Positions 2,386 to 31,177 of a stretch of 33,980 nt of DNA are shown one piece after another. Under the pieces are notes generated by a model. That model saw nothing but the letters and a program-made list of their open reading frames with translations. It was not told the origin of the DNA and ran no database searches. Position numbers and translations under genes: made by a program. Positions within the stretch are counted from its first letter, which is position 1. Every line of letters begins with the position of its first letter. This DNA comes from Myxococcaceae bacterium (GTDB lineage Bacteria > Myxococcota > Myxococcia > Myxococcales > Myxococcaceae): the NCBI GenBank assembly GCA_025459425.1, contig JALOQF010000048.1:1-33980 (forward strand), written 5' to 3'.

Positions 2386-2435
2386 TGGTCGTCAACGTAG
2401 TCGAAAGCCGCGCCGCGGCGCGACCTGCTGTGCGG

Positions 2436-4364
2436 TCAGCGACCGAAGAGCGTGAGCCTCCACGAGACCAGGCGCCCAACGTCCTGCGCCGCGAGGTCGC
2501 GCACCACCAGCCGCCACCGTCCATCGCCCGACTCGTCGAGGTGCCGCACGCTGGTGAAGGTGACTTGCGCGAGTGGGCTGCACGCCGGTTGTCCATTGCG
2601 CCCCGGCGCGCACGCGTGCTGCGGGTGGAGCCGCGAGAAGCCGCCGCCCTCGTGCTCGAGCCGCACCTCGAGGTCGCCCGAGTGCGGGTGCTCGATGGTC
2701 AGCGTCACCTCCACCACGTCGACCTCGGCGACGCCGCTGCCCTGCACGGTGATGACGTTCGACACGCCGGTGGCGCTCGCGTCGGGAATCGCCTGGTTCA
2801 CCTGTGCCACCGCGCTCGAGAACGTCTTCTCGGGAGCCCCCGCCACGAAGTCCTTCGCCAACTGCACGGCCGCCGTCGCGTTCACCACCCCGAAGCCGTA
2901 GTCGTGGTTCACGGAGAGCCCTGCGCCGTTGACGCTCCAGTCGGGGTGCGAGGGGTGGTTGCGCCGCGCCGAACGGGCCAGCACGCGCCGCACGTCGCGC
3001 CAGGTGAGTTGCGGGTTCTCCTGGAGCAGCAGCGCCACCACGCCCGCCACCAGCGGCGTCGACGCCGAGGTGCCTTCGAACGTCTGCGTGTAGTGCGGGT
3101 TGGCTGGCTCTCCCGCGGTGCGGCCCGAGTTGTAGCCGTCAGCGCCCGTGACGTCGGTGGTGACGAGGTAGCGCGCGCCGCGGTGCCCTGATGGAGCGCT
3201 CACCAGCACGTTCGCGCCCGCCTCGGCGTAGGCCGCCCGGGTGCCGTCGTCGCTCACCCCGCCGATGGCGAAGACGAAGCGGCTGTTCGCCTGGCCATCG
3301 AAGTTCGAGTCGTCGACGAAGCGCCCGTCGGCGCCGTTGCCCGAGGGGAAGAGGTACACGATGCCGCGGCCGCCGCGCCCTTCACGGGTGCCCCGCTCGA
3401 CGCCCATCAGCCACAGCGCGTCGGCGGTGGTGAGCTGCCCGGTGCCGTCGTCGGCGTCGCCCCAGCTGTTGTTGCTCACCTGCACCACGTCGAGGCCGCG
3501 CACCATCGCGTCGAGCTCGTTCGCCGAGGTGGAGTCCTGCAGCAGGTTGAACGAGGCCACGCTCGCCCGCGGCGCCACGCCACGCCCGCCCAGCCCGTTC
3601 TCGTCCCGCGCGCCGATGAGGCCCGCCACTGCGGTGCCGTGCTCCGCGAGGTCGGCGGTGGCGTTGCCGAGGTAGTCGTGGCTGCGCGTGACGTCGACGT
3701 TGGCGACGAGGTCTTCGTGCGCCAGGTCGACGCCATCGTCCACCACGCTCACCAGCACCCCTTCACCACGCACCGACGCCCAGGCGCCGATGACGGACAG
3801 GTCTTCACCTGCGCGGCCCTGAGATTGGCCGGTGTTCAACAGGTGCCACTGCTGTGAGTACAGCGGGTCTCCCAGGCCCGGCGTCACGGCCACCGTCACG
3901 CTCGCCGTCGCGCCGTCACAGTCGAGCGAGAACGTCTGCGTCGACGTCACCCGCAGCCTCATCGACCCGCTGGCCGGGCCCTCGCGGCCGGGCGGCGTCA
4001 CCGTGCAGCGCGAAGCGCCGACGGACTCCCAGGTGAGCGTGACGAGGTCGCCGCTCGACGCCGTCACCGGGAACGCGGCGAAGCGCACGATGCGCACCGG
4101 GTCGACCTCGACGCGAACGCTCGCCGTGGCAGCACCGCACGTCAGCCCGTAGTCCGTCGTGACGGCCGGCGTGACGGTGAGGGCACCGGCCACGCTGAGC
4201 GGCTGGTCTCCGGGCGTGAGGCGACAGGCCGCGGCGCCCATGCTGCTCCACGACAACTGCGTCGAGGCGCCAGCGACGACGCGCGCCGGCTCGGCGGTGA
4301 AGAAGCTGATGGAGGCCGGCGTGCACCCGGTCAGCACCACCACGCCGAGCACCAAAGCGCGCAT
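2436..4364 (-). CDS. Kexin-like S8 serine protease lipoprotein with two Ig-like domains and a P domain
   Basis: A lipoprotein signal ends at C14 (VVVLTGC). Two Ig-like repeats follow (about 17-90 and 91-163), each with an S-W-S/T-W-E-S strand and a cysteine pair. The proprotein-convertase-style entry segment D-P-L-Y-S-Q-Q-W-H-L-L-N-T-G is at about 166. The catalytic triad is visible: D209 (VVDDGVD), H242 (EHGTAVAG) and S433 (EGTSASTP), with oxyanion N343 (SGNG). The last ~125 residues form a P/homoB-type beta domain. The protein should be anchored in the envelope and cleave proteins outside the cytoplasm. It is odd in having no I9 prodomain between signal and catalytic domain; Ig-like domains occupy that place. 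A separate prodomain-like protein is encoded nearby at 1169-1702. No ribosome-binding site is obvious before the ATG. Confidence 0.93.
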   Translation of the reverse strand: MRALVLGVVVLTGCTPASISFFTAEPARVVAGASTQLSWSSMGAAACRLTPGDQPLSVAGALTVTPAVTTDYGLTCGAATASVRVEVDPVRIVRFAAFPVTASSGDLVTLTWESVGASRCTVTPPGREGPASGSMRLRVTSTQTFSLDCDGATASVTVAVTPGLGDPLYSQQWHLLNTGQSQGRAGEDLSVIGAWASVRGEGVLVSVVDDGVDLAHEDLVANVDVTRSHDYLGNATADLAEHGTAVAGLIGARDENGLGGRGVAPRASVASFNLLQDSTSANELDAMVRGLDVVQVSNNSWGDADDGTGQLTTADALWLMGVERGTREGRGGRGIVYLFPSGNGADGRFVDDSNFDGQANSRFVFAIGGVSDDGTRAAYAEAGANVLVSAPSGHRGARYLVTTDVTGADGYNSGRTAGEPANPHYTQTFEGTSASTPLVAGVVALLLQENPQLTWRDVRRVLARSARRNHPSHPDWSVNGAGLSVNHDYGFGVVNATAAVQLAKDFVAGAPEKTFSSAVAQVNQAIPDASATGVSNVITVQGSGVAEVDVVEVTLTIEHPHSGDLEVRLEHEGGGFSRLHPQHACAPGRNGQPACSPLAQVTFTSVRHLDESGDGRWRLVVRDLAAQDVGRLVSWRLTLFGR

Positions 4365-6566: not shown

Positions 6567-6616
6567 ATCTCGGCGGCGGCCCGCGCAGCCACGGCCAGGC
6601 AGGCTGAGCGAGCTCG

Positions 6617-16948: not shown

Positions 16949-19090
16949 ATGTCAGCTGACGTACCGTCGTTCGGGGACAAGGTCCGTTACCAGGTCGACC
17001 GGTTCCTCTCGTGGAGCCCCTTCGCCCGCTTCGTCGGCCTCTTCGGGCTCTCGTTCATCCTCGTCTTCTGCTGCGCGGTGCTGGCGAAGCTGGTGATGCC
17101 GCCGCCGGAGGACCCGAACGACACCTTCGACCTCTTCGAGGCGCTGTGGTGGGCGATGACGCGCGTCGCCGACGCCGGCACCATGGGCGACGACAAGGGC
17201 ACGCTGGTGCGCTTCGTCGCCACGCTCGCCACCTTGAGCGGCGTCGGCGTCGTCGCGCTCCTCATCGGGCTCGTCTCGAGCACCATCGGCGACAAAATCG
17301 AAGACCTGCGCAAGGGCCGCAGCCCCGTCATCGACGAGGGCCACACCCTCATCCTCGGCTTCAACGAGAAGGTGTTCGCGATTCTGCGCGAGCTGCGCGA
17401 GGCCAACTCGAACCAGGCGCAGGCGTCCATCGTCATCCTCTCCGAGACGGACAAGGAAGAGGTCGAGAACGCGGTGCGCGAGCGCATGGGCGACATGGGG
17501 CCGACGCGGGTGGTGGTGCGCCAGGGCAGCCCCTTCTCGGTGCACGACCTGCGCAAGGTGGGCGCTGGGCGCGCGAAGAGCATCATCGTGCTCGCCGGCG
17601 AGGAAGAAGAAGGCGCGGAAGACACGCACGACCTGGTGGCCATCAAGACGCTCCTCGCGCTGCGCCGCATTCCCGGGGCGCTGTCGAAGAACCACGCCGT
17701 CGTCGAGCTGCTCGACGCCTCGCGCCGCACCGTCGTCGAGCAGCTGGGCGCGGGCGGCGTCGAGGTGGTGGCGATGGCCGAGACGCTGTCGCGCATGATG
17801 GTGCAGACGGCGCGGCAGAACGGGCTCGCTGCCGTGTACCGCGACCTGCTCACCTACGAGGGCAGCGAGTTCTACTTCACGCCGGTGGGCGCGCTCGCTG
17901 GCAAGGAGTTCCGTGAGGCCCAGTGGGCCACGAAGGACGCGGTGGTGTGCGGCGTGCGGCGCGCCCAGGCGCAGGGTCCGGCCGTCTGCACCCTCAACCC
18001 GCCCGACGACTTCCCCCTGCAGGACGGCGACGAGCTGCTCGTCATCGCCGAAGACGACGACAGCTTCTCGCTCACGGCGGCGCACCAGCCCACGGTGCCC
18101 GAGGCCTTCCAGGGCGCGACGCCGATGGCGCGCAAGCCCGAGCGGCTCCTCATCTGCGGCATGAGCCCCAAGCTGGGCGACATGCTTCGTGAGTTCGACA
18201 ACTACGTGCTGCCCGGCAGCGAGGCCTGGCTCATGCCCGGCCAGGACAAGGACGCCTTCACCGAGTTCATCAAGGCCGAGGTGGGCGGGCTCAAGAACTT
18301 GAAGCTCAAGCACGTCGAGGGCGACCCGACGCTGCCCGAGGCGCTCAAGCGTGTCGTCTCACCGGACTTCGTGGTGGCGATGGTGGTGGCCGACATGGCC
18401 CGCCCGGTGGACGAGGCCGACGCCCGCACCGTCATCACCGTGCTGCTGCTTCGCAACTTCTTCCGCGCCTTCAAGGACAAGAAGCCGCGCATCATCTCCG
18501 AGATTCTCGACCCCCGGACGAAGGACCTGCTCGAGACCGACTACGGCGCCGACTTCGTGGTGTCCGCCGAGATGACGTCGATGCTGCTGGCCCAGGTGTC
18601 CGAGCGACGCGAGCTCAACGCCGTCTTCGCCGACCTCTTCGACTCGGACGGCAACGAGCTCTACCTCAAGCGCGCGGCCTGCTACGCGCTGCTCGGCTAC
18701 ACCACGCCCTGGCTCACCGTGCAGAAGGTGGCCCGGCAGCGCGGCGAGGTGGCCATCGGCTACGCCAAGCTCGGCGGCACGCCCATCATCAACCCGAAGC
18801 AGGACGAGGCCATCGTCTTCGCCGAAGAAGACCGCGTCATCGTCATCGCCCAGGACGACAGCGAGGCGGTGGGCGACCAGCGCGGAGGCGACCTCACCGA
18901 GCCACCCTCGTCGCCGCTCGTCGACACGAAGGCTCCCGAGGCCAGGACACCCGGGCCCGGCCGCTCGGCGCTGCTGCCGCCCGAAGGCCCGAAGGCGCCC
19001 GACACGAAGCCGGTGTCGGCCGGGCCGCGCGTCGAAGGCCCCAGCACCCAGCCCCGGCCGCCCCTGCCCACCAAGCCACGGGGGACGTGA
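16949..19090 (+). CDS. CASTOR/POLLUX-type ion channel with two RCK domains
   Basis: This 713-residue inner-membrane channel has TM1 (about 27-49), a pore helix (61-73), an A-D-A-G-T filter region (74-78) and TM2 (87-112). An RCK domain from about 130 (H-T-L-I-L-G-F-N-E-K) and a second from about 394 (E-R-L-L-I-C-G-M-S-P-K-L-G-D) follow. The A-D-A-G filter in place of G-Y-G, and the paired RCK layout, match the CASTOR/POLLUX (SYM8) family known from plant symbiosis and from bacteria. Ion choice is therefore not simply potassium. The cytoplasmic RCK pair would gate the pore through ligand binding, perhaps Ca2+. The last ~70 residues are a Pro/Lys-rich disordered tail. Neighbours give no clue to physiology. 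Confidence 0.92.
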   Translation: MSADVPSFGDKVRYQVDRFLSWSPFARFVGLFGLSFILVFCCAVLAKLVMPPPEDPNDTFDLFEALWWAMTRVADAGTMGDDKGTLVRFVATLATLSGVGVVALLIGLVSSTIGDKIEDLRKGRSPVIDEGHTLILGFNEKVFAILRELREANSNQAQASIVILSETDKEEVENAVRERMGDMGPTRVVVRQGSPFSVHDLRKVGAGRAKSIIVLAGEEEEGAEDTHDLVAIKTLLALRRIPGALSKNHAVVELLDASRRTVVEQLGAGGVEVVAMAETLSRMMVQTARQNGLAAVYRDLLTYEGSEFYFTPVGALAGKEFREAQWATKDAVVCGVRRAQAQGPAVCTLNPPDDFPLQDGDELLVIAEDDDSFSLTAAHQPTVPEAFQGATPMARKPERLLICGMSPKLGDMLREFDNYVLPGSEAWLMPGQDKDAFTEFIKAEVGGLKNLKLKHVEGDPTLPEALKRVVSPDFVVAMVVADMARPVDEADARTVITVLLLRNFFRAFKDKKPRIISEILDPRTKDLLETDYGADFVVSAEMTSMLLAQVSERRELNAVFADLFDSDGNELYLKRAACYALLGYTTPWLTVQKVARQRGEVAIGYAKLGGTPIINPKQDEAIVFAEEDRVIVIAQDDSEAVGDQRGGDLTEPPSSPLVDTKAPEARTPGPGRSALLPPEGPKAPDTKPVSAGPRVEGPSTQPRPPLPTKPRGT

Positions 19091-19317
19091 GTCGAGGCCG
19101 CAAGGCTTTCTGGCTCGCGCACCCCCGGCAGCGCGACACCGTCGACGGTCGAACCGAAGCGGGAGTGCAGGGGGAGGACTTCGCGATGGAGCGCCTCCCG
19201 CGGTTGCTTTCGACGGCCAAAGCGCTGCAACGGCGCAGAGGTGGAACGACTCGAGGCGGGCTTCGCGCGCGTGACGAGCCTGCAATCGTGACGGCGTTGG
19301 TGCGTGTCGTCACCCGC
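19091..19317. other. Intergenic region, 227 bp
   Basis: This lies between the channel gene and the small lipoprotein. It holds the upstream region of the latter. No clear promoter, dyad or RNA gene is visible. Confidence 0.4.
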
Positions 19318-19680
19318 ATGATGCGCTGGCTGCCTGCCCTGGTGGTGGTGACTGCGGGCTGTGGGCCGCCCTGCCGGGCCGTCTCGGCTCCAGCCACCTT
19401 CGTGTACTGCCCGGCGCCTCGGGCCGACGTCTCGTTCGTCTGCTCTGCGACCGCCTCGGACGGGCGCAACGAGACGCTCATGGGGCGCTGCCTCGTCACG
19501 GTGCGTGACGGCGGCATCGACTTCTTCGTCGAAGGCGAAGCCTGCGACCGCCTGCCGTTGCCGGCTCCAGTCTCAGGGGTTCGCTGCGAAGTCCCGCCAC
19601 TCTCGCCGGGCCCCTGGGTCATCGCCGGTGTGCTCCGCGAGCTGCCCGCAGATGGCGGCGTCGCAGCCCCGCGGCCCTGA
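19318..19680 (+). CDS. Small cysteine-rich lipoprotein
   Basis: From the ATG at 19318 (a second ATG follows directly) the product is 120 residues with a lipoprotein signal ending T-A-G-C (C14). The mature part has six or more further cysteines (P-P-C-R-A, V-Y-C-P-A, F-V-C-S-A, G-R-C-L-V, E-A-C-D-R, V-R-C-E-V), suggesting a compact disulfide-bonded domain. No family is recognised. The frame is open back to 19087, but the added 77 residues look unlike protein and would hide the signal. It converges on the kinase gene with 9 bp between stop codons. Confidence 0.65.
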   Translation: MMRWLPALVVVTAGCGPPCRAVSAPATFVYCPAPRADVSFVCSATASDGRNETLMGRCLVTVRDGGIDFFVEGEACDRLPLPAPVSGVRCEVPPLSPGPWVIAGVLRELPADGGVAAPRP

Positions 19681-19689
19681 TGGCCCGCT

Positions 19690-21654
19690 TCACTGCGCGA
19701 GGAGCCGCACCTTCACCTGGCCGTTCACCGGGAGCGGACCTTCGATGGGCGGGAAGCCCTCGCGTTGGAGGACGCGGGCGATGCACTGCTCGAGGCCGCC
19801 GCCGGCGCCGCTGCCCAGCAGCTTCGCGTTCACCACTCTTCCACTCTGCTGCAGGGTGATGAGGAGCGCGGTGCTGCCGTCGACCTTCGCCGTCTCGTCC
19901 GGGTACTTCACCTGGCAGCCGCGCAGCTTCGGCCCGAAGCGGCTCATCACTTCGGCCACCGACTTCGCCGAGATGCGAATCGGCTTCCGAGGGGCGCCTG
20001 CGGCGGGGCGTCGCGTGCCTGCGTCGGCGGGGCCGGAGCCCGGCTCGACGCCAGCATCGAGTGCGTCCTCGGTGGCTCCCGCGTCGGCGAGCGCCACGTC
20101 GGCGCCGGCATCGTTGGCAGCGGGGGGCGGGCCAGCGTCGACCTCGACCGCGGGCAACGGCGTCAGCACCGCAGGTGGTGGAGGCGTGGCCACCGGCTCC
20201 GGGGGCTTTGGCGTTCGCGAGAGCCAGAAGCCGCCCACGCCCAGCCCGGCCATCAGCACCGCGGCGCCGAGCGCCACCAGGCCCCGTCGACCACCGCCCG
20301 TGCCGGGCGCGGCTTCTCCACGCAGAATCGCGCGCACCTCGTCACGCACCTCGACCATCGACTGCGGCCGCAGCTCGCGGTGTTTCTGCAGGCACTTCTC
20401 GACGAGCGTTCGCAGCCGCGGCGGAATCGACTCGCCAACCTGGTTCCTGGCCGGGAGCGGCGCGTACGGCTTCGTGATGATCTGCACCGCGATGTTCACG
20501 AAGTTCGGCGCGTCGAAGGGGAACGCCCCGGTGAGCAGCTTGTAGAGAATGACGCCCACGGCCCACACGTCGCTGCGCGCGTCGACGGCGTCGCCCTGGG
20601 CCTGCTCCGGCGACATGCAGATGGGCGTGCCGATGATGGCGCCCTCGGTGGTGGCTACCATGGCCTTGCCGTCGGTGTCGGTCAGCTTGGCGACACCGAA
20701 GTCGAGCACCTTCACGTAGTCCTTCGAGCCCCCGCGCTCGATGAGCATGATGTTGTCGGGCTTGACGTCGCGGTGCACGACGCCGACCCGGTGCGCGGCC
20801 GCCAGCGCGTCGCACAGCTGCTCGACGATGCGCAGGGCCCGCGCGAGGTCGACCGGCTGCTCCTCGATGAGGTCGCCCAGGGTGCGGCCCTGGAGGAACT
20901 CCATCACGCAGTACACCGCCGAGGGCCCCGCCTCGCCCGGCTCCTGCACGAAGTCGCTGATCTCCACGATGTGCTCGTGGTTGATCTGATTCACCGTGCG
21001 CGCTTCCTGGAAGAAGCGCTGAATCAGCTCTGGCTGCTGGTACTGCTCCGGGCGCAGCACCTTGATGGCGGCGAGCCGGCCGAGCGACTGGTGGCGCGCC
21101 TTGAAGACGTGGCCCATCGAGCCCTGCCCGAGGAGCGCCTCGATGTTCCAGGGGCCGAGCGACGTTCGGGTGACCGGCTGCGAGCCCGACGGCCTGGGCC
21201 CCGAGGTGAGCGTCTTGTCGAGGCGCACCAGCGCCCGCTTGAGCTCCGAGAGGTTGGCGAAGCGGGCCGACGGGTCTGGCGAGAGGCACTTCGCCACCAC
21301 GGCCTCGAGGTGGGCGGCGCGGGCCGGGAGCGGGGTGCCATCGGGTGGCTTGCCGGTGAGCGCGTGCACCAGCAGCGCGCCCATGGCGTAGACGTCGCTG
21401 CGGGGCGTCGGCGGCCCGCCACGTTGCCGCTCTGGCGCCGAGGCGCCCGCGACGGGCAGCGCGTCGGGTACGTTCGCCTCGACGACGCGCCCGTAGAGCG
21501 TCACCCGCGCCGGCGCGACGTCACCGAGCGTCTCGGCCGAGGCCGACTTCTCGAAGCGGTCGCAGAGGCTCCACACCACCCGCACGGCCTCGTCCACCGG
21601 CAGCGGGCCTGACTGCAGGCGTTGCTCGAGGGTGACGCGGCCATCGACGGACAT
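19690..21654 (-). CDS. Transmembrane Ser/Thr protein kinase with N-terminal degenerate kinase lobe and C-terminal AgmX/PglI-like domain
   Basis: The 654-residue protein has four parts. Residues 1-145 look like the C-lobe of a second kinase: S-D-V-Y-A-M-G-A-L-L-V-H-A-L-T-G-K-P and C-L-S-P-D-P-S-A-R-F are there, but no glycine loop, catalytic lysine or HRD. Residues 165-445 are a complete Hanks-type kinase with loop G-Q-G-S-M-G (176-181), K198, H294-R-D296, D318-F-G and A/G-T-P-I-C-M-S-P-E. A TM helix is at 458-478, followed by a Pro/Asp/Ala-rich periplasmic linker. The end (about 560-654) resembles the TonB-like AgmX/PglI C-terminal domain, with C580 and C624 probably paired. The kinase faces the cytoplasm and the tail the periplasm, fitting signal transfer from the envelope. 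Two envelope protein genes lie upstream on the same strand, 154 bp away. Confidence 0.93.
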   Translation of the reverse strand: MSVDGRVTLEQRLQSGPLPVDEAVRVVWSLCDRFEKSASAETLGDVAPARVTLYGRVVEANVPDALPVAGASAPERQRGGPPTPRSDVYAMGALLVHALTGKPPDGTPLPARAAHLEAVVAKCLSPDPSARFANLSELKRALVRLDKTLTSGPRPSGSQPVTRTSLGPWNIEALLGQGSMGHVFKARHQSLGRLAAIKVLRPEQYQQPELIQRFFQEARTVNQINHEHIVEISDFVQEPGEAGPSAVYCVMEFLQGRTLGDLIEEQPVDLARALRIVEQLCDALAAAHRVGVVHRDVKPDNIMLIERGGSKDYVKVLDFGVAKLTDTDGKAMVATTEGAIIGTPICMSPEQAQGDAVDARSDVWAVGVILYKLLTGAFPFDAPNFVNIAVQIITKPYAPLPARNQVGESIPPRLRTLVEKCLQKHRELRPQSMVEVRDEVRAILRGEAAPGTGGGRRGLVALGAAVLMAGLGVGGFWLSRTPKPPEPVATPPPPAVLTPLPAVEVDAGPPPAANDAGADVALADAGATEDALDAGVEPGSGPADAGTRRPAAGAPRKPIRISAKSVAEVMSRFGPKLRGCQVKYPDETAKVDGSTALLITLQQSGRVVNAKLLGSGAGGGLEQCIARVLQREGFPPIEGPLPVNGQVKVRLLAQ

Positions 21655-21808
21655 CGGTTGACGGGACTGTAGCGTGAGGCCGCTCGGGTTGATCCACTTT
21701 CGGCCGTTCGAGCTGACGAACGTCGCGCCTGGGTTTCAGGCCCGACGCTCGCCGAGCGTGACGGCCGTGCGGAGCGAGCGGGCGAACGCCGGGCCCACGG
21801 CAAGCCTG
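21655..21808. other. Gap of 154 bp between the FecR-domain gene and the kinase gene
   Basis: This is long enough for a separate kinase promoter, but no terminator-like hairpin with a T tract is seen. The three minus-strand genes could therefore still form one transcript. No ribosome-binding site is obvious before the kinase ATG. Confidence 0.4.
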
Positions 21809-23710
21809 TCAGCGCCGCAGCCGTCGCAGCCAGTAGCTCTCGCTGTCTCCCAGCACCACGCGGAAGAGCGCGGTGTCTCCCGACACCGGCACCGAGAAGC
21901 GCCCGCGCTCGTCCGTCTTCACCAGCTTGCCGTTGACGAACACCTGCGAGCGCCCGGGCGCCACGCCCACGGCCTTCGTGTCGGGCCCCGCGCGCTCTCC
22001 GGGGAGCGGCCGCTCGATGAGCAGCGTGGTGCGCGCGTTGTCGTACAGCACCTCGAGCTTGTTGAGCCGCACGCCGGCCTTCGCCACGCCGTTCGCGTCG
22101 AGCGGCGTCGCCGACCAGTTGAAGTTGCCTTCCGTCAGCACACCGGGCTCGAGCACCAGCCGGCCCTCGGGCACCTGCCGGTCGATGAGGGCCTTCGTGG
22201 TGCCCGCCGCGTAGAGCTGAAAGCGCCACGCCTTCGCGCCCTCGAAGGCGTTGAAGGCGAACGTGAGCGCCGGCACCTTCGACTGGTAATAGACGGTCGC
22301 CTTCTGGCCCGTCTCGGCCACCACGTCCGAGCGGGTGGCCGTGTCGCGCGCCGAGGCCACGTCGGGCAGGAAGTCGAGCCGGCCCTGCTTCAGCGTGGCG
22401 CCCGAGGCGTCGGTGGTGCGGAAGAAGAGCTGCCCGCGCGCGGCGCCCGGCACCAGCACCTGGCGGCCCACCGCGCCCGCGATGAAGGTCGAGGCGAAGG
22501 CCTCGTCACGCGCCACCTCGACGCGGTTCGTCTCGTCGGGCAGCACGATGGCCACGTTGGCGACGCCGTCGGCGTGCACCTTCACCCGGCTCGCGCCGTT
22601 CACCACCAGCCCGGGCTTGAGCTCGAGCGCCGTGGCGCGGGCGCCCTCGATGAGGAGCCCGTCTCCGGCCTTCACCACGCTCGGCTTCCCGTCGATGGTG
22701 ACGGCCACTTCGCCCGACTTCACCTCGACGCGCTGCTTCTTCCCCGTCTGCGTCACCTGCACGGTCGCTTCCTGCGACCCGCCCACCACCACGTCTCCCA
22801 CCTTCACGCCGCCCGGCCCGCGCCCGTCGAGCTGCACCGTCAGCGGGCCCACCACCTTCGTGAGGGCGAGCACCGGCAGGCCACCCTCGTCGCGCACCCC
22901 TTCGGTGATGCCCGAGGCGCCAGCAGCGAGGCCCACGCGCGCGTGGGGTGCCTCGAGGCGCGCCGCGGCCTTCGGCCCCACCTGGTACGCCGTGCCCGCC
23001 GGCACCGCCTCGCCGGACTTCGCCGCCGTGAACGTCTTCTCGCCGGGCCGCTTCACGCTCAGCTTGCCGACCTCGACGACGACCTTCACGGTGCCCGGCG
23101 GTGGAGGCTCCGTCGGCATCTCGAAGTCGACCGCGGCCGCGCCGAACGAGAACGCGCCCGGCTTCACCGTCGTGGTGCCCGCGTCGGGGAACTCGAACTC
23201 GATTTCACCGAAGGCGAGGGTGCCCGCGAAGCCACCGTCGGCGACCTGCACCCGGCCCACCGCGCCCTCGCCGAGCGTCGCGGTGCCGCTCGCCGTCTTC
23301 ACCTTGACGCCCTGCCAGGTCGAGCCGCCGTCGACCGCGCTGAAGGCCACCGAGCCCGCGAGCAGCTCGAGGCTCGCCAGCTTCGAGCCCACGCGGAAGC
23401 GCGTCTCTTCCTCCAGCTCGAGCCCGCGCCCTGCCTCGTCGATGAGGAGCGCCCGGCTCGCAGGGCCCGTCGCCAGCAGGTCTCCGTCGAAGAGCGGCCC
23501 CGGGCGCGCGGGGCCCGTGCCGCCATCGCGCTCGAGCTCGACCTGCCCCTCGACCTCGGTCAGCTGCGCGAGCGGCGTCGCCACCGGCGCGAGGGGCGTC
23601 AGCGGTGTCGAGGGCGGCGGCGTCGGGGGCGCTGGCGGTGGGGCTTCCGGGCAACCGCTCGCCAACCCCACCAGCGTCAGCGCCAGCAGCGCTCGGGCCA
23701 TGGGCGTCAT
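21809..23710 (-). CDS. FecR-domain lipoprotein
   Basis: The signal peptide ends in a lipobox V-G-L-A-S-G-C (C20), followed by a Pro/Thr-rich spacer. At least two FecR-like beta domains follow: one around 45-190 (V-E-G-Q-V-E-L-E-R-D-G and L-L-A-G-S-V-A-F) and one around 205-355 (V-E-V-G-K-L-S-V-K-R-P-G-E and V-K-S-G-E-V-A-V-T-I). The C-terminal ~250 residues are beta-rich and Ig-like, ending V-F-V-N-G-K-L-V-K-T-D-E-R-G-R-F-S-V-P-V, a glucodextranase-like 'N-G-x-x' strand. FecR domains in myxobacteria often sit in the periplasm as signal or scaffold modules. The ATG overlaps the stop of the barrel gene by 4 nt (ATGA at 23707-23710), so both are coupled. Start choice at 23710 or 23701 does not change the lipobox. 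Confidence 0.87.
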   Translation of the reverse strand: MTPMARALLALTLVGLASGCPEAPPPAPPTPPPSTPLTPLAPVATPLAQLTEVEGQVELERDGGTGPARPGPLFDGDLLATGPASRALLIDEAGRGLELEEETRFRVGSKLASLELLAGSVAFSAVDGGSTWQGVKVKTASGTATLGEGAVGRVQVADGGFAGTLAFGEIEFEFPDAGTTTVKPGAFSFGAAAVDFEMPTEPPPPGTVKVVVEVGKLSVKRPGEKTFTAAKSGEAVPAGTAYQVGPKAAARLEAPHARVGLAAGASGITEGVRDEGGLPVLALTKVVGPLTVQLDGRGPGGVKVGDVVVGGSQEATVQVTQTGKKQRVEVKSGEVAVTIDGKPSVVKAGDGLLIEGARATALELKPGLVVNGASRVKVHADGVANVAIVLPDETNRVEVARDEAFASTFIAGAVGRQVLVPGAARGQLFFRTTDASGATLKQGRLDFLPDVASARDTATRSDVVAETGQKATVYYQSKVPALTFAFNAFEGAKAWRFQLYAAGTTKALIDRQVPEGRLVLEPGVLTEGNFNWSATPLDANGVAKAGVRLNKLEVLYDNARTTLLIERPLPGERAGPDTKAVGVAPGRSQVFVNGKLVKTDERGRFSVPVSGDTALFRVVLGDSESYWLRRLRR

Positions 23711-25335
23711 CGCAGCTTCTCGAGCTCGATCTGGAAGATGGCCTGGTCTCCGTCGGCGACCTCGACCTGCTTCGTCTGCGTGACGTGCTTCGGCGCCTCG
23801 ATGACGAGCGTGTACTTGCCGCCCGGCACCTCGACCTCGAAGCGGCCGTCGGCCTTGACGGCCTGCTTCAGCTTGAGCTCGACGACGCGCACGGTGGCCT
23901 TCGCCACGGGCCCGGCGGCGGTGCTGATGACGCCGCGGAGCTTCGCCTTCGCCCGCTGCGCCGCCAGCTCGAGCGTCACGTCGAGGGTCGCCGTCGCTTC
24001 TGGAGGCACCTGGACGGCTTCGTCGGCAGGCACGTAGCCGTCGAGCATCACCCGCACCTGCACGGGCCCCGGGCCGACGCCCTCGAGCGTGTAGACGCCC
24101 GAGGCCTGCGTCGTCGTCGTCTTCGCGCCCGAGACGACCTTCGCGCCCGCGAGCGGCTTGTCAGGCGCAGCGCGCACCACACCGGTGACGCGGCCGGGGC
24201 CCGTGGGCGTCTCGAGCACCAGCTCGGTCTCGGTGAGACCCTCGTCTGCCACCACCACCGACACCCTCGCGGGGCGCAGGCCGGGCGCCGAGGCCTTCAC
24301 CTCGACGGGGCCGGGCGAGAGGTCGGTCACCTCGAAGGCGCCGCTCGAGTCGCTCTGCACGGTGCGGGCGCCCACGTTGACTGACGCGCCCGTGACGGGT
24401 GTCCGGTCGGCCTTGAGCACGCGGCCCGAGAGGCCTCGGGGTCTGCGCGCCGGCACGTCCACGCTGCCGCTGGGCGCCGGCCGACGCAGCGCCACGGCTG
24501 CGCCCAGGCTCGGGCGGAAAAGAATGGTCGAGAGCGCCGGGTTCTCCGGCGCCTCTGGCAGGCGCGGCGCGACGAGGTTCGACCATGACACCTCGGCGAG
24601 CAGCCCCACGCCGACCTCGAGCGGCCCGACCTCCAGCGCGCCGAAGCGGGCCTGCAGACCGGCCGTGAGCCCGGGCCCATGCACGCGCCCCCAGGCCGAG
24701 GCCTCTTCGAGCCCGAGGACGTATTCGGCCCGCCCGTAGACCTGGAACCAGAGGTGGCGACTGACGTCGACGTCCACCGCCAGGCCTCCCACGGGGCCGG
24801 TGGTGAGCACGCCAGTCGCGCAGCTCTGCACCGCGCCATCAGCCGGCAGCCGGCCCAGCAGACTCGAGGGACAGCTCCGGTCGAGGCGCATGTAGGGGCG
24901 GCCTGCCATCGCCCAGCCACCCTGGAGTTCGAGCCCCACCACGCCCGAGGCCTGCCAGCGCACGAGGCCGAGCAGGTGGCCCGAGAGCGCGCGGTACTCG
25001 GTGGTCCGCTCGTTGATGCGCGCCTGCTCCCCGGCGCCGATGGGTGGGTCGGACTGCTGGAAGAAGCGGAACGGGTCGACGCGCACGTCGGCCTGCACGC
25101 CGAACCACGAGCGGCTGTACCAGGTTGCCGTGAGCGCCTGGGTCAGCAGGAGAAACGGAGCATCGGTGGAGAACGCCTGGGCCGTCGCGGTGGCACCCTG
25201 GCTCTGCGAGCGGAGCAGGCCTCCGACCGTCACCAGCGCCCGGCTCTCGGTCCACCCGCCCGTGGGGAGCGTGTCAGCCTGCTGCGCGAGGGACGATGCG
25301 GCTGCCAGAAGCCCAACGAGAACGCCGATGCGCAC
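23707..25335 (-). CDS. Outer-membrane barrel-like protein with three carboxypeptidase-regulatory-like domains
   Basis: A Sec signal peptide (V-G-L-L-A-A-A-S-S-L-A-Q) leads into about 280 residues of alternating beta pattern with aromatic girdles (S-R-S-W-F-G-V-Q-A-D-V-R-V-D-P; L-W-F-Q-V-Y-G-R-A-E-Y-V-L), fitting a small outer-membrane barrel. Three consecutive carboxypeptidase-regulatory-like (Ig-like) domains follow at about 310-375, 385-445 and 460-525. Each has the G-x-V-x-D/A...P-V-x-G-A-x-V and D-S-S-G-A-F-E-V pattern. The order of barrel first and regulatory domains last is the reverse of TonB-dependent receptors, where one such domain comes first. Coupled to the FecR lipoprotein and followed by a kinase, it is the likely surface member of the module. 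Confidence 0.8.
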   Translation of the reverse strand: MRIGVLVGLLAAASSLAQQADTLPTGGWTESRALVTVGGLLRSQSQGATATAQAFSTDAPFLLLTQALTATWYSRSWFGVQADVRVDPFRFFQQSDPPIGAGEQARINERTTEYRALSGHLLGLVRWQASGVVGLELQGGWAMAGRPYMRLDRSCPSSLLGRLPADGAVQSCATGVLTTGPVGGLAVDVDVSRHLWFQVYGRAEYVLGLEEASAWGRVHGPGLTAGLQARFGALEVGPLEVGVGLLAEVSWSNLVAPRLPEAPENPALSTILFRPSLGAAVALRRPAPSGSVDVPARRPRGLSGRVLKADRTPVTGASVNVGARTVQSDSSGAFEVTDLSPGPVEVKASAPGLRPARVSVVVADEGLTETELVLETPTGPGRVTGVVRAAPDKPLAGAKVVSGAKTTTTQASGVYTLEGVGPGPVQVRVMLDGYVPADEAVQVPPEATATLDVTLELAAQRAKAKLRGVISTAAGPVAKATVRVVELKLKQAVKADGRFEVEVPGGKYTLVIEAPKHVTQTKQVEVADGDQAIFQIELEKLR

Positions 25336-25694
25336 AGGTGGAAAACGGTAGCACGGCTGGAACGGCCTTCACCGTTTCTGTGCGAAGGGCCGCTTCACCG
25401 TTGAACCCGAGCGTGCCGTGGCGCGTGGCCGGGTGATCACCACGCCACCGACTTCGAGGCGCGGGCCGGGGGCGAGGCTCGTCTCGACGGAGCTGCCACC
25501 GCCGTCGACCCGTTCAGTCACCATCGGCCGATTCAGCGCCGAGCCACCCGCATCGGAGTCTGCCCGGCACCAGCGGACGCTCGGAGGCTGCGGCGGTCCG
25601 GCATGGCCAGCCCCGAGCTCCTGGAGGAGGCCTCACGCGCGTGCCCCCAAGTCGCTGCGGGGAGCCAGCCGACTGCGGTACAAACGCCCTCGTG
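25336..25694. promoter_or_regulatory. Divergent intergenic region between barrel and Kelch genes
   Basis: About 360 bp separate the divergent starts at 25335 and 25695. Promoters for the envelope cluster and for the Kelch gene must lie here. Next to the barrel gene, TTCACCGTTTCTG (25369-25381) and TTCACCGTTGAAC (25395-25407) form an imperfect direct repeat 26 bp apart. That spacing is not a whole number of helical turns but could mark a regulator site. Confidence 0.35.
25369..25524 (-). CDS. Doubtful small reading frame or gene remnant upstream of the barrel gene
   Basis: A minus-strand frame from an ATG at 25524 gives 51 residues with protein-like phrases (V-D-G-G-G-S-S-V-E-T-S-L; G-P-R-L-E-V-G-G-V-V-I-T-R-P) and ends K-R-P-F-A-Q-K-R. 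The frame stays open upstream to about 25625 without an earlier ATG and keeps the same character, as if it were the 3' end of a longer lost gene. Third-position GC is about 78%, lower than neighbours. No ribosome-binding site precedes it. The plus strand is also open here, so this is weakly supported. Confidence 0.25.
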   Translation of the reverse strand: MVTERVDGGGSSVETSLAPGPRLEVGGVVITRPRATARSGSTVKRPFAQKR

Positions 25695-26858
25695 ATGACG
25701 GCCTGCCGTTCGTTCTCGTTGGCCGTGACCCTCGTCAGCGTGGCGGCGTCGGGGCAGGGGCGCATCCAGCCGGCGGGCGCGTTGGCCGAGGCGAGGGCCC
25801 AGCACACCGCGACGCTGCTGGCCGACGGGCGTGTGCTGGTGGCCGGAGGGCGCGGCGCCGACGCCACTGCCACGCTGGCTTCGACCGAGCTGTTCGACCC
25901 GAAGACGAACACCTGGCGCGCGGGGCCGCCGATGACGACGGCGCGGGCGGGGCACACCGCGACGCTGTTGGACGACGGCCGTGTGCTGGTGGTGGGTGGT
26001 ACGGCGCCGGCGCGTGACGGCAGCGCCCGCCTCGACGCGCTCGACTCGGCCGAGGTGTTCGACCCCGCGAAGCGCACCTGGCAGCGGGTGGGCGCGCTCG
26101 CCGAGGCGCGTAATGGGCACACGGCGACGAAGCTGGCCGACGGCAGCGTGCTGGTGGTGGGCGGCGCGCGGCCGGTGCACCAGCACCTCGCCAGCGTGGA
26201 GCGGTTCGACCCGGTGACGGCGTCCTTCACCCGCGCGGCGCCCCTGAGCCTGGGGCGGTGGCTGCACGACGCCGTGCGCCTGGCCGACGGCAGCGTCGTG
26301 GTGCTGGGCGGGCGGTCGAACCAGCTGCGGAGCGAGGGGGGCGTGGCCACGCCGAAGCCCGGGCTTCCCCTCGACGCGGTGGAGCGCTTCGACGTCGATG
26401 CCGGCACCTGGGCGCCGCTCCCGGCGTTGACCGAGCCGCGGCAGCGCACGGCGGTGGCGGCCCTCGGCACGAAGGTGGTGGTGTTCGGTGGGCAGACCTC
26501 GACGATGTCGACGAACTACGTCGAGTGGTGGCAGCCCCCGGCCAGCGAGTGGGCGCAGTCGGCCACCCATCTGTCGGTGCCCATCGCGGGGCACACGGCG
26601 TCGGTGCTGCCGTCGGGCGACGTGTTGGTGGTGGGCGGCGAGCCGCCGCAGGCCGTCGACACGGCGCGGGTGCAGCGCTGGGTGCCCTCGACGCAGCGGT
26701 GGTGTCTGGCCGGCACGCTGAAGGTGTCGCGCAAGGCGCACGCGGCGACGGTGCTGAAGGACGGCTCGGTGCTCGTCTCGGGCGGGACGTCGGCGGGTCT
26801 GGCCGAGGCGTCGGCGGAGCGCTGGGTGCCGGTGAAGGGTGAGTGCGTCGAGCCGTAG
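25695..26858 (+). CDS. Exported Kelch-repeat beta-propeller protein
   Basis: From the ATG at 25695 the product is 387 residues with a signal peptide ending near S-V-A-A-S-G-Q-G. About six Kelch-type blades follow, each with R-x-x-H-T-A-T-L-L-x-D-G-R-V-L-V-x-G-G and a later W-x-x-x-x-x-L-x-x-A-R phrase. Good examples are A-Q-H-T-A-T-L-L-A-D-G-R-V-L-V-A-G-G and A-G-H-T-A-S-V-L-P-S-G-D-V-L-V-V-G-G. The propeller should act outside the cytoplasm as a binding scaffold. Kelch genes are frequent in myxobacteria and none of the catalytic residues of galactose oxidase are evident. A frame start at 25641 would bury the signal and is not used. Confidence 0.9.
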   Translation: MTACRSFSLAVTLVSVAASGQGRIQPAGALAEARAQHTATLLADGRVLVAGGRGADATATLASTELFDPKTNTWRAGPPMTTARAGHTATLLDDGRVLVVGGTAPARDGSARLDALDSAEVFDPAKRTWQRVGALAEARNGHTATKLADGSVLVVGGARPVHQHLASVERFDPVTASFTRAAPLSLGRWLHDAVRLADGSVVVLGGRSNQLRSEGGVATPKPGLPLDAVERFDVDAGTWAPLPALTEPRQRTAVAALGTKVVVFGGQTSTMSTNYVEWWQPPASEWAQSATHLSVPIAGHTASVLPSGDVLVVGGEPPQAVDTARVQRWVPSTQRWCLAGTLKVSRKAHAATVLKDGSVLVSGGTSAGLAEASAERWVPVKGECVEP

Positions 26859-27043
26859 CCCGGTGCTGGCGTCGGACACGCGAGCGCCTCAGAGCCGTTG
26901 GTCCCCTGGGGAAGCCAACACCACTCGGGCGCGGTGTGACGCCCCTTCGCCAGGGCTGGCCGATGGAGTGCACGCCGTCAGCACACCTGGTGGCGCTCCA
27001 AGCACGGCCTGGCTCGGGCCCCGTGCCACCGTGAGCGCGCCGA

Positions 27044-27059
27044 TGTTTCACGTGGAACA
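27044..27059. promoter_or_regulatory. parS: parS centromere site (ParB binding)
   Basis: TGTTTCACGTGGAACA matches the 16-bp chromosomal parS palindrome with a single asymmetric base pair. Its reverse complement, TGTTCCACGTGAAACA, is the classical Bacillus spo0J parS sequence as I recall it. It sits in the 266-bp gap before the ureide operon, not in a coding region. ParB loads here as a CTP-dependent clamp for chromosome segregation. parS sites cluster around the replication origin, so this window is probably origin-proximal. No parA, parB or dnaA gene is in the window. Confidence 0.9.
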
Positions 27060-27124
27060 CCCGTTCAGTGGTCGCACCTTCTCCGAACGTCGGCCCTTCA
27101 AATTTGGCACAGTGCCGCGCCCTG

Positions 27125-28678
27125 ATGGCGAACGCTCCCGTGGCTCCCGAGTTCGCCCACCTCGTCGACCTCTCGGCCGATGCGTTGGGTACCTTCGTTC
27201 TCTTCGCGACCGACGACTACTTCGCCGAGAAGGAGAACCTCCTCAAACCCGGCGCGCCCGAGTGGCGTGAGGGCGCGTACACCGACAAGGGCAAGTGGAT
27301 GGACGGCTGGGAGTCGCAGCGCCGTCGCACGGAAGGGCACGACTGGGCCGTCATTCGGCTGGGCGCCAGCGGCCGCGTCCACGGCGTGCTCGTCGACACC
27401 ACGCACTTCAAGGGCAACGCGCCGCAAGAGGTGGCCCTCGAGGGCATCGACGCGCCGCTCACCTCGACGGCGCAGATGCTCGAGGCCGCGACGGGCTGGT
27501 TCGAGGTGTTGCCGCGCCAGCCGGTGAAGCCCGACTTCCCCAACGTGCTGCGCGCGAAGACGCCCTCGGCGCGCGTCACCCACGTGCGCCTGCGCATCTT
27601 CCCCGACGGCGGCGTGGCCCGGCTGCGCGTGTACGGCGAGGTGGTGGCCGAGCCGCGCACCTTCTGGCGGCGGGGCTCCGTCGACCTCGCGGCCGTGGAG
27701 AACGGCGGCACCATCGCCGCGGTGAGCGACCAGTTCTTCGGGCCTCCGTCGAACCTGCTGTTGCCCGGCCGCGGCGTGAACATGGGCGACGGCTGGGAGA
27801 CGAAGCGCCGCCGCACCCCCGGCAGCGACTGGTGCGTCATCAAGCTGGCTCGCCGCGGCGTCGTCGAGCGGCTCGAGCTCGACACGCACTACTTCAAGGG
27901 CAACGCGCCCCAGGCCACCCTCGTCGAGGCGCTCGACGAAGAGACGGTGGGCGCCGCGGCGGTGGAAGGCCTGCTCCGGGCCCCGAAGGGGTGGCAGACG
28001 TTGCTCGCGCGCACGCCGCTGGTGCAGCACCGCCGGCACCAGCTCGAGCCCGACCGCCCGCTGCCGGTGACGCACCTGCGCGTGCACATCTTCCCGCACG
28101 GCGGCGTCAACCGGCTGCGCGTCTATGGAACGGCGCTCGACACGCCAGCCGAGCGCCGGGCCCTCGCGTGGCTCCACGCCTTGTCCGCCGACGAGGCGAG
28201 CGCGCTCTTCCTCTCGTGCTGCGGCGCGCGCGCGTGGGCCGAGACGATGGCGGCCTCGAGGCCGTTCGCGTCGGCGCGCGAGCTCTTCGCGGCGGCCGAG
28301 AACGTGTGGTGGAAGCTCGGCACCACCGCGTGGCTCGATGCCTTCGCCGCGCACCCCCGCATCGGCTCGTCGAAGAAGGGCAAGGCCCAGACGGCGAAGT
28401 CGGCGGCGTGGTCGAAGGGGGAACAGCGCGGCGTCGACGCGTCGGAGAAGGCCGTGCTGGCGAAACTGAAGGCGCTCAACGACGCCTACTTCGAGAAGTT
28501 CGGCTTCATCTTCATCGTCTTCGCCACGGGCAAGTCGGCGCCCGAGATGCTGGCGCTGCTCGAGGAGCGCGTGGGCCGCTCGAAGAAGGCCGAGCTCGAG
28601 ACGGCGGCCGTCGAGCAGATGAAGATTACGCGGCTGCGGCTCGAGAAGTGGCTCGCCGAGCGCGGCGGGGAGCGCTGA
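27125..28678 (+). CDS. Allantoicase fused to OHCU decarboxylase
   Basis: From the ATG at 27125 the protein has 517 residues. The first ~335 form allantoicase: two similar halves, each with D-G-W-E-(S/T)-(Q/K)-R-R-R-T, D-W-x-V-I-(R/K)-L and T-(H/H)-(F/Y)-F-K-G-N-A-P-Q motifs. It hydrolyses allantoate to ureidoglycolate and urea. Residues ~340-517 are OHCU decarboxylase with the H410-P-R-I-G active-site motif and F-G-F-I-F-I-V-F-A-T-G-K-S. This half turns 2-oxo-4-hydroxy-4-carboxy-5-ureidoimidazoline into S-allantoin. The two steps are not consecutive (allantoinase lies between), so the fusion more likely fixes co-expression than direct channelling. An upstream GTG at 27068 would add 19 residues and nearly touch parS. 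Four nt separate it from the next gene. Confidence 0.95.
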   Translation: MANAPVAPEFAHLVDLSADALGTFVLFATDDYFAEKENLLKPGAPEWREGAYTDKGKWMDGWESQRRRTEGHDWAVIRLGASGRVHGVLVDTTHFKGNAPQEVALEGIDAPLTSTAQMLEAATGWFEVLPRQPVKPDFPNVLRAKTPSARVTHVRLRIFPDGGVARLRVYGEVVAEPRTFWRRGSVDLAAVENGGTIAAVSDQFFGPPSNLLLPGRGVNMGDGWETKRRRTPGSDWCVIKLARRGVVERLELDTHYFKGNAPQATLVEALDEETVGAAAVEGLLRAPKGWQTLLARTPLVQHRRHQLEPDRPLPVTHLRVHIFPHGGVNRLRVYGTALDTPAERRALAWLHALSADEASALFLSCCGARAWAETMAASRPFASARELFAAAENVWWKLGTTAWLDAFAAHPRIGSSKKGKAQTAKSAAWSKGEQRGVDASEKAVLAKLKALNDAYFEKFGFIFIVFATGKSAPEMLALLEERVGRSKKAELETAAVEQMKITRLRLEKWLAERGGER

Positions 28679-28682
28679 CGCC

Positions 28683-29015
28683 ATGGGCATCTCGACGCAC
28701 ATCCTGGACACCACGCGCGGCCGCCCGGCGAAGGGCGTGACGGTGCGCCTCGAGCAGCTCGTCGCCGGTGGGGCCGTCGAGCTCGCGCGCGGCGTGACGA
28801 ACGACGATGGCCGGGTGAAGCCGCTCCTCGACGCGATTCCGGCCGCGGGCGCCTACCGGCTGCACTTCGACGTGGCCCCGTACTTCACGGCCCTCGGCGT
28901 CGAGGCCTTCTACCCGTCGGTGAACATCGACTTCGTGGTGAAGGCGACGCACGAGCACTACCACGTGCCGCTGCTCCTCAACCCGTTCGGCTACGCCACC
29001 TACCGCGGCTCATGA
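28683..29015 (+). CDS. uraH: 5-hydroxyisourate hydrolase (transthyretin-like)
   Basis: This 110-residue protein is full length for the family. It starts with the S-T-H-I-L-D-T-T-R-G-R-P-A signature, has the R-x-H-F-D-V-A-P-Y-F middle and ends in the invariant tetrapeptide Y-R-G-S, which identifies HIU hydrolases against other transthyretin relatives. H6 and the H-Y-H-V-P-L-L-L strand carry active-site residues. It converts 5-hydroxyisourate, the product of urate oxidation, to OHCU, the substrate of the decarboxylase half of the preceding gene. The stop overlaps the next ATG by 4 nt (29012-29015). Confidence 0.96.
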   Translation: MGISTHILDTTRGRPAKGVTVRLEQLVAGGAVELARGVTNDDGRVKPLLDAIPAAGAYRLHFDVAPYFTALGVEAFYPSVNIDFVVKATHEHYHVPLLLNPFGYATYRGS

Positions 29016-29512
29016 GCACCGTCCGCGCCGAGCCCCTGTCCGTCGAGGCCTTCGCGCCCTTCGGAGACGTCGTGTCGGCGGGCCTGCGGGCCGGGCAGTC
29101 GGCGAACCAGGGTACGGCGACGCGCTTCGACTGGTGCACCGAGCTCGTCAACGCGCGCGCAGGGGCGCGGGCCAACGTGTCGGTGTTCCGCTCGGTGGCG
29201 AAGACGCTGCCCTTCGAGCTGAAGCTGCTCGAGCACCACCCGTGTTCGACGCAGGCCTTCCTGCCGATGGTGTGTCAGCGCTTCCTGGTGTGCGTGGCGC
29301 CGACGGCGGCCGGTGGTGGCCCCGAGGTGGGTGGCCTGCGCGCGTTCGTCTGCGGCCCCGGCCAGGGCATCAACTACCGCGTGGGCACCTGGCACCACCC
29401 CATCGTCGCGCTGGGCGCCGACGCCGACTTCGTGATGCTGGCCTTCGAAGACGGCTCGCCGCAGGACTGCGTGGTGCAGCCGCTCGTCGCGAGCGTGCGC
29501 GTGGTGGAGTGA
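29012..29512 (+). CDS. allA: Ureidoglycolate lyase
   Basis: The 166-residue protein matches AllA-type ureidoglycolate lyase: an N-terminal E-A-F-A-P-F-G-D-V motif, V-S-V-F-R-S and L-L-E-H-H-P-C-S-T-Q-A-F-L-P-M in the cupin strands, and F-V-C-G-P-G-Q-G-I-N-Y-R-V-G-T-W-H-H-P. It splits ureidoglycolate to glyoxylate and urea, the step after allantoicase. It is translationally coupled to uraH. With these genes the cell can take 5-hydroxyisourate to allantoin and allantoate to glyoxylate, provided allantoinase is encoded elsewhere. Confidence 0.95.
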   Translation: MSTVRAEPLSVEAFAPFGDVVSAGLRAGQSANQGTATRFDWCTELVNARAGARANVSVFRSVAKTLPFELKLLEHHPCSTQAFLPMVCQRFLVCVAPTAAGGGPEVGGLRAFVCGPGQGINYRVGTWHHPIVALGADADFVMLAFEDGSPQDCVVQPLVASVRVVE

Positions 29513-29518: not shown

Positions 29519-31177
29519 ATGCAGCTCGTCGGCCGCAGAGACCTGCTGGTGTCCTTCCTCGGCGTCGCGGCGGCGACGGCGGCCTGTCGCCGCGACGGGC
29601 GCCAGCGTCGCGAGGTGCCGACGCGCTTCGTCGATGGCGTGCACGAGGTGGGGCACCGGCTGCGGGAAGCGCCTCCACCGCTCGCGACGGTGGACGAGCG
29701 GGTCGTCGAGTGCCTCGTCGTGGGCGGTGGCGCGGCGGGGTTGTCGGCGGCCTGGCGGCTCCGCGGCGCGGGCGTGTCCGACCTGCTGGTCGTCGAGGTC
29801 GACGACGTCGAAGGTGGCACGGCGCGCTCGGGGCAGAACGCCGTCTCGCGCTTCCCATGGGGCGCCCACTACCTGCCGGCGCCGCTGTCGGCGAAGGGGC
29901 CGGTGCCGAAGCTGCTGAGCGAGCTCGGCGTGCTGACGGGCCTCGACGACGAGGGCGCGCCGGTGTTCGCGGAAGAGGCGCTCATTCACGAGCCGGAGGA
30001 GCGCGTGTACTACCGGGGCCACTGGTACGAGGGCCTCTACCTGCGCGCCGGGGCTTCGGCCGACGACCTGGCTCAGCTCAGGCGCTTCGAGGCGATGATG
30101 GAAGGCTTCGCCGCCGCGCGCGACGCGAAGGGGCGCAAGGCCTTCGCGGTGCCGCTCGAGCTGGGGAGCGACGACGACGAGTGGACGTCGCTCGACCGCC
30201 TCTCGATGGCGTCGTGGCTCGAGCAGCAGGGCTTCACCTCGCCGCGGCTCAAGTGGCTCGTCGACTACGCGTGCCGCGACGATTACGGCGCCACCGCCCA
30301 GGACACGTCGGCGTGGGCTGGCCTCTGGTACTTCTGTGCACGGCAGAGCGGCGCCGAGAAGAACGAGGGGTTCTTGAGCTGGCCCGAGGGCAACGGCCGG
30401 CTCGTTCGGCAGCTCGCGAGCGGCTTGAGCGCCCAGCAGGTGCGGCGACGCACCCTCGTGCACACGCTCGAGCCGGTGCCCGGCTCGACGGACTGGACCG
30501 CGCACGCGCTCGACGCAGCGACGATGGCGCCGGTCCGGCTACGCGCGCGGCAGGTGGTGCTGGCCACGCCCCGCTTCGTCGCGGCCCGGCTGCTGGCGCC
30601 CTGGCGAACGGCGCGGCCATCGTTCCTCGACGCCTTCGTCACCGGGCCGTGGACGGTGGCGAACCTGACGCTCTCGCAGCGGCCGAAGAGCCGTGGCTTT
30701 CCGCTCGCATGGGACAACGTCGTGCACGAGAGCCGCTCGCTCGGGTACGTGGTGGCCACGCACCAGTCGCTCCAGGCGCGCACGACGGGGCCGACGGTGT
30801 TGACGTGGTACTACCCGCACGACGGGAGCGACACCGTCGCCGAGCGCAAGAAGCTGCTCGCCACGACGCCAGCCGAGTGGGCGCAGGTGGTACTCGGAGA
30901 CCTGGCTCCCGCGCACGTCGGCTTCGAGGCGATGGTCGAGTCCATCGAGGTGATGCGGTGGGGCCACGCGATGGTGCGGCCGGTGCCGGGCTTCCTGTGG
31001 GGCTCGGCGCGGCGCGAGGCCCAGGCGTCACTGGGGCCGTCGCTGCACTTCGCGCACTCGGACCTCGGCGGGCTGGCGCTCTTCGAAGAGGCCAACTGGC
31101 ACGGGGTTCGCGCGGCGGAGCAGGTGCTCGCGGGGCTGGGCCGGTCGGGCGCGTCGTGGCTCGACGCTGGAGGGTAG
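29519..31177 (+). CDS. Tat-exported FAD-dependent oxidoreductase (amine-oxidase-like), last gene of the ureide operon
   Basis: The 552-residue protein opens with a twin-arginine signal (G-R-R-D-L-L, R6-R7) and a hydrophobic core ending at C23 (A-T-A-A-C), so it may be a Tat lipoprotein. The FAD dinucleotide motif is V-V-G-G-G-A-A-G-L-S at about 67-76, followed by an E-V-D-D-V-E-G-G-T-A-R-S-G ribose/phosphate site. It has the general layout of flavin amine oxidases, with C-terminal W-x-W-G-x-A-M motifs and E-E-A-N-W-H-G-V. It starts 6 nt after allA, so it belongs to the operon. The substrate is unknown. Context invites a role in oxidising a purine breakdown intermediate, but this is not the flavin monooxygenase family of the known FAD urate hydroxylase HpxO. 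Confidence 0.85.
   Translation: MQLVGRRDLLVSFLGVAAATAACRRDGRQRREVPTRFVDGVHEVGHRLREAPPPLATVDERVVECLVVGGGAAGLSAAWRLRGAGVSDLLVVEVDDVEGGTARSGQNAVSRFPWGAHYLPAPLSAKGPVPKLLSELGVLTGLDDEGAPVFAEEALIHEPEERVYYRGHWYEGLYLRAGASADDLAQLRRFEAMMEGFAAARDAKGRKAFAVPLELGSDDDEWTSLDRLSMASWLEQQGFTSPRLKWLVDYACRDDYGATAQDTSAWAGLWYFCARQSGAEKNEGFLSWPEGNGRLVRQLASGLSAQQVRRRTLVHTLEPVPGSTDWTAHALDAATMAPVRLRARQVVLATPRFVAARLLAPWRTARPSFLDAFVTGPWTVANLTLSQRPKSRGFPLAWDNVVHESRSLGYVVATHQSLQARTTGPTVLTWYYPHDGSDTVAERKKLLATTPAEWAQVVLGDLAPAHVGFEAMVESIEVMRWGHAMVRPVPGFLWGSARREAQASLGPSLHFAHSDLGGLALFEEANWHGVRAAEQVLAGLGRSGASWLDAGG

Follow-up and report, generated by a model that had tools for sequence, protein, structure and literature searches.

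The sequence before the ureide operon studied here resembles a centromere site (parS). This raises two questions: whether it is a parS of the organism itself, and whether it tells us where on the chromosome the operon lies. The site is found in a stretch of 33,980 bases (71% G+C), here called the window, which is one whole contig (C181). The source genome (G000) is the draft of an uncultured myxobacterium (8.41 Mb, 651 contigs, completeness 89.9%). The features of the window are as follows.

1169..4364, minus strand: two genes, encoding a 221-aa protein and a subtilase with a P domain; synteny marker, 10 kb from mnmE in the congener G006
16949..26858, no strand assigned: block of an RCK-domain ion channel gene, a protein kinase gene, two more genes and the Kelch gene; synteny marker, corresponding to G006:C90 264-272 kb
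25641..26858, plus strand: Kelch-repeat protein gene, upstream of the parS site
27043..27270, plus strand: 75-codon frame starting MFHVEH, out of frame with allantoicase, whose start it overlaps; probably no gene
27044..27059, plus strand: parS 16-mer TGTTTCACGTGGAACA, the sole exact match in the window; six further exact copies are on contig C302 beside parA-parB
27125..28678, plus strand: allantoicase-OHCU decarboxylase fusion, first gene of the ureide operon
28683..29015, plus strand: HIU hydrolase (transthyretin family), ureide operon
29012..29512, plus strand: ureidoglycolate lyase, ureide operon
29519..31177, plus strand: NAD(P)-binding (NAD_binding_8) protein, the next gene on the same strand; assigned to the operon by position only

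The original prediction described a near-perfect ParB-binding palindrome in non-coding DNA. The palindrome is present on the plus strand at 27044-27059; TGTTTCACGTGGAACA and its reverse complement disagree at 2 of the 16 positions. That reverse complement is the parS sequence of B. subtilis spo0J. No other place in the window comes within three mismatches; dinucleotide shuffles average 0.01 such places. The site is intergenic. The Kelch-repeat gene stops at 26858 and the most likely allantoicase start codon is at 27125, 65 bases beyond the site; the gap between these genes, together with the identification of the allantoicase-OHCU decarboxylase fusion, HIU hydrolase and ureidoglycolate lyase, confirms the predicted place before a ureide operon. 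The 75-codon frame is not supported as a real gene: it overlaps allantoicase out of frame, and its sequence is absent in genome G002. Its ATG-parS arrangement is the same as that at the mnmE start on contig C377.

Two other features of the gene content can be mentioned. Allantoicase and OHCU decarboxylase are fused in the window; among the 43 family genomes with a match, 23 have the two parts matching separately. The RCK-domain (Castor/Pollux-like) ion channel gene (16949-19090) and a gene for a PrsW-family protease (31533-32780) have one match each per genus genome (six searched, with G004 left out), and no match to either (E 1e-30) was found in the seven relatives of other genera that were searched.

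Whether the 16-mer belongs to the partition system of this organism can be judged from its other copies. A scan for it elsewhere in the genome had been set as a check beforehand, and the scan of the whole draft (two mismatches or fewer) found seven exact copies: the one in the window and six on C302. This contig has the gene order mnmG, rsmG, parA, parB, bactofilin, and the six copies are interspersed with the first four of these genes. A match by chance, with no role for ParB, would have only the lack of conservation described below in its favour. It is very improbable and is rejected, because about 0.0004 exact copies are expected genome-wide (independent bases, 70% G+C) where seven are observed; the expectation per window is 0.01 even at up to three mismatches.

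C302 contains ten GTTYCACGTGRAAC cores, at positions 191 to 6687. C377 contains one more, at the start of mnmE, the other end of which is on C302. The genome thus has 11 cluster sites, and three cores are found elsewhere: in the window, at C555:693 and at C333:3116. This census comes from the 16-mer scan at two mismatches or fewer and may miss sites with more altered ends. The ParB protein of the genome carries ParB_N, HTH_ParB and ParB_C domains; the solved chain closest to it by sequence is 7bnk, with which it has most of the HTH segment in common, including RSTVANALRLLALP and MGHARALLG. The window site is a 16-bp imperfect palindrome with the GTTYCACGTGRAAC core, and the genome has a cognate parA and parB with the same site repeated beside both. 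Since six of the seven copies stand in the parS cluster on C302, 27044-27059 matches the organism's own centromere sequence and is probably a genuine parS. The predicted identity of the site is thereby well supported.

Some parS sites overlap the starts of coding frames. This is seen at C377 821, at C555 692 and in G006:C3 near 4193 and 11909; the proteins (from mnmE, parA and an MNIO-family gene) begin with or near FHVEH, VEH or FHVKR. The MNIO-family protein (MbnB/TglH/bufferin maturase-like) is encoded at C555 692-2521 and has one weak match in five congeners (G005, 30% identity). The genes mnmE, mnmG, rsmG and parAB are found together, with parS inside and between them, in G006:C3 and in C302 plus C377; in G053, by contrast, the mnmE match is ~4 kb and parAB ~67 kb from dnaA.

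The window site is the only parS on its 34-kb contig. It does not stand beside parAB and is not kept in relatives, as would be expected of a site in an M. xanthus-type cluster. The original prediction had relied on the clustering of myxobacterial parS sites; this part does not hold, as the site is isolated and outside the cluster. No site at three mismatches or fewer was found before the allantoicase operon in any of the five congeners in which the operon was found. Allantoicase matches occur in 43 genomes (42 besides G000). Thirty allantoicase loci were read, the window included, and none of the 29 others (the five congeners among them) has a parS match at three mismatches or fewer. In G002, the Kelch-allantoicase order and the neighbours are kept and parS is absent. 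Because the site is missing at all 29 other loci, including G002 with its Kelch-allantoicase order, it was probably gained recently in this lineage.

In this family, parS sites away from the cluster seem to be uncommon; the window site belongs to a known kind and is slightly unusual. In the eight relatives with fully listed cores, 87 of 87 cores fall in one tight cluster per genome (G012, 11; G040, 17; G045, 12; G052, 15; G053, 4; G060, 3; G064, 16; G070, 9). For G016, 12 of 16 cores are listed and all of these are clustered; G063 (32 cores) is outside the positional listing. Reversed-pattern controls gave 2 sites across 15 relatives, and the real core was found at least once in each of the 15.

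The second question is the distance to the origin. The original prediction placed the window near the origin on account of the parS site. One parS alone is not enough to map a locus. What supports the placement is synteny among congeners: their gene order does favour it, and on these grounds the window likely lies near the origin. The genes at 1169-1834 and 2436-4364 have one match each in each of five congeners. In G006:C3 their distance to mnmE and the parS cluster is 10 kb, and in G001:C56 they have the same neighbours. Four links connect the window to the origin set of 16 contigs. Two of them run via G001:C56 and G003:C337, contigs that were chosen for carrying the same gene; the independent direct synteny evidence is therefore the two links to G006:C3, which come from one neighbouring gene pair. 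None of 20 control contigs of the same genome (171 called genes on 18 contigs; two contigs have none) is linked directly to any of the 16 origin contigs; these controls cover direct links only. Similarly, none of the 13 genes of C457 has a direct link to this set.

Indirect and uncontrolled links point the same way. In G005:C162, the ion channel gene (16949-19090) lies 2.8 kb away from another gene, and the partners of that gene are about 6, 3.5 and 3 kb from dnaA in G006, G001 and G003. In G001:C358, a gene beside the operon has its partner 8 kb from dnaA in G006:C86. Genes at 285-325 kb of G006:C90 have partners on the parAB contig (C302), on mnmE contigs (G003:C11, G002:C198) and on G001:C56, which carries the neighbours that mnmE has in G006. 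The link through the 16949-26858 block to G006:C90 is loose, because 2 of the 20 control contigs link there too (400 kb read) and genes from 29 to 372 kb of C90 are also found on origin-set contigs.

G005:C62 begins with parAB and has 19 reciprocal best hits with G006:C86, which has dnaA at 45.8 kb; parAB and dnaA are estimated to be 60-70 kb apart in the window's genus. In G006 and G005 the operon is on other contigs than parAB or dnaA, and gene order around the origin contigs is shuffled within the genus. The two other outlying sites differ in their links. C555 is linked three times to each of G005:C62 and G006:C86, and thus probably lies between parAB and dnaA. C333 has a five-gene match on G003:C156 (20 of 36.8 kb read), with no link to origin contigs.

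The window gene order is not kept in other genera. Relatives in which one contig carries both dnaA and the parS cluster have the two near each other (approximate gap 40 kb for G064, 43 kb for G070, 67 kb for G053, 112 kb for G052). The fused allantoicase gene is ~5.5 Mb (G064) and ~5.7 Mb (G070) from dnaA; in five more relatives (G012, G040, G045, G052, G053), allantoicase is 0.7 to 6.5 Mb from it. Placement of the window on the complete genome of another genus failed: the 400 kb surrounding the G053 dnaA held no match at ≥50% identity for any of 25 window genes. Likewise, none of the 298 genes of G006:C90 was matched within 200 kb of the G053 dnaA at 50% identity.

The three outlying sites have a flank in common. 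It consists of these features in the window:

27055..27066, plus strand: GAACACCCGTTC, the palindrome GAAC-N4-GTTC, overlapping the right half of parS
27063..27068, plus strand: GTTCAG, at the same offset in all three outlying parS sites of the genome
27053..27069, plus strand: best match to the M. xanthus SOS box CTRHAMRYBYGTTCAGS, with 3 mismatches

GTTCAG follows the core at one fixed offset in the window (27044-27059), C333 (3116-3131) and C555 (693-708), and at this offset in none of the 11 cluster sites. Its GTTC, four bases past the GAAC of parS, is at the fixed place in 3/3 outliers and 0/33 other parS sites (36 sites, contigs read). The flanks of the window and C333 sites have 11 bases in common (probability 7e-5 for a random pair); for random flank triples from the same DNA, the probability of a common run of 6 is 5.5e-5. 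Across the 16 genomes searched, the extended motif GTTTCACGTGGAACNNCNGTTCAG is matched exactly three times, always in G000. All its other matches in these genomes are at 3 mismatches, and two C302 sites are among them. This flank is unexpected and is not accounted for by parS function; a LexA-like operator is no more than a lead. The idea that phage parS sites generally carry this extension was rejected: GTTTCACGTGGAAC-N4-GTTC was found in 25 viral stretches, against 25 and 17 for two scrambled tetramers, and is thus not enriched.

One reading of the flank is that the outliers are primarily operators of a repressor (LexA or LexA-like) which recognises GAAC-N4-GTTCAG, with the parS half adding a response to ParB or being a mere resemblance. 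The fixed GTTC and the low probabilities of the common runs would fit this; so would G002, which has the same palindrome (GAACGCGCGTTC, GAACGCGCGTTCAG) at -69 before its allantoicase match, at the same distance from the operon and without parS, so that the palindrome may predate parS there. However, no GAAC-N4-GTTC palindrome precedes the operon in the stretch read in G001, G003, G005 or G006, and runs in common also occur among the 11 cluster sites, where some triple of the 165 has up to 7 bases in common; this can be put down to growth of the cluster by duplication, presumably. The SOS box of M. xanthus (CTRHAMRYBYGTTCAGS; PMC9705874) resembles the flank, but none of the three sites matches this myxococcal SOS (LexA) box: the window and C333 sites each depart from it at 3 positions and the C555 site at 2, and all three lack the 5' CT. 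In the same study, LexA was reported not to bind the recN box, which is two bases off consensus. The C333 site also has convergent genes on either side, where an operator would not be expected. This reading is improbable on balance. A bolder version treats the outliers as a separate parS class in which the site is joined to a GAAC-N4-GTTCAG operator, so that ParB loading at chosen genes is tied to a LexA-like repressor or contends with it. This is quite improbable; if true, it would link chromosome partition to gene control. The literature collection that was searched contains no publication joining parS, ParB, LexA and SOS box.

The site may also be a relic or hitch-hiker, that is, a copy of parS carried there by DNA rearrangements in the origin region, or out of an array missing from the assembly, perhaps bound by ParB but with no selected role. 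Absence from congeners, the shuffled gene order around the origin contigs of the genus and the restriction of the exact extended motif to one of 16 genomes are all consistent with this. A single bound parS allows segregation in P. aeruginosa (PMC5098823), so extra sites may be neutral. On the other hand, the outlier flanks are alike, and they have no run of 6 or more in common with any of the 11 cluster sites; the outliers are therefore not simple copies of the assembled cluster. We regard this origin as possible, though unlikely, and it overlaps the explanation preferred below, which claims binding and not selection. A hairpin or terminator that happens to include the parS palindrome is extremely improbable. 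CTGAAC and GTTCAG do stand on opposite sides of the C333 site, but single-stranded folding is no better than that of shuffles at the three sites (z 0.07, 0.80, 1.11). Nothing like a terminator was found in window 26700-27300, and an intrinsic terminator, which would need a stable hairpin and then a T run, is rejected with folding at shuffle level.

The explanation that we consider quite likely is that the window site is a genuine ParB-loading parS outside the main cluster, probably in the origin-proximal part of the chromosome. ParB is loaded at parS as a CTP-dependent clamp and slides on DNA. The ParB of this organism would recognise the window site as it does the identical cluster sites, load there as such a clamp and slide along the neighbouring DNA. 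A small ParB patch would then form over the ureide operon and join the partition complex of the origin region that is moved by ParA; mild repression of the allantoicase promoter may be a side effect. Binding, clamp loading and repression at this site are inferred, and the predicted loading and damping of the ureide genes are drawn by analogy with P. aeruginosa. There, when just one parS is left, ParB is enriched over >8 kb at it, and segregation needs no more than one bound parS provided that this is within a zone of ~650 kb around oriC (PMC5098823). Genes beside parS3 and parS4 of the same species rise when parB or parS is lost (PMC5521831). A lone parS before a metabolic operon is a natural test of ParB spread, of gene silencing and of how such sites originate.

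Known systems resemble this one to different degrees. The M. xanthus SOS box is like the outliers in its GTTCAG half and inner positions, but the outliers differ from it by 2-3 mismatches and the loss of the 5' CT (PMC9705874). The parS3 and parS4 sites of P. aeruginosa are intergenic, close to oriC and before genes which rise on loss of parB or parS; they are high-affinity main sites, whereas the window parS is an extra outlier (PMC5521831). The parABS cluster of M. xanthus, about 30-35 kb from the origin, comprises 22 or 24 sites and shares the parA-parB-bactofilin order and the parS core with our genome (PMC3778016, PMC3899335). Unlike that cluster, the sites here are scattered from the mnmE start via mnmG and rsmG to parA, with three outliers in addition. 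M. xanthus also has an outlying parS at position 349383 (PMC3899335); like the window site, this is a single parS apart from a large parAB-adjacent cluster, and it is found in a relative.
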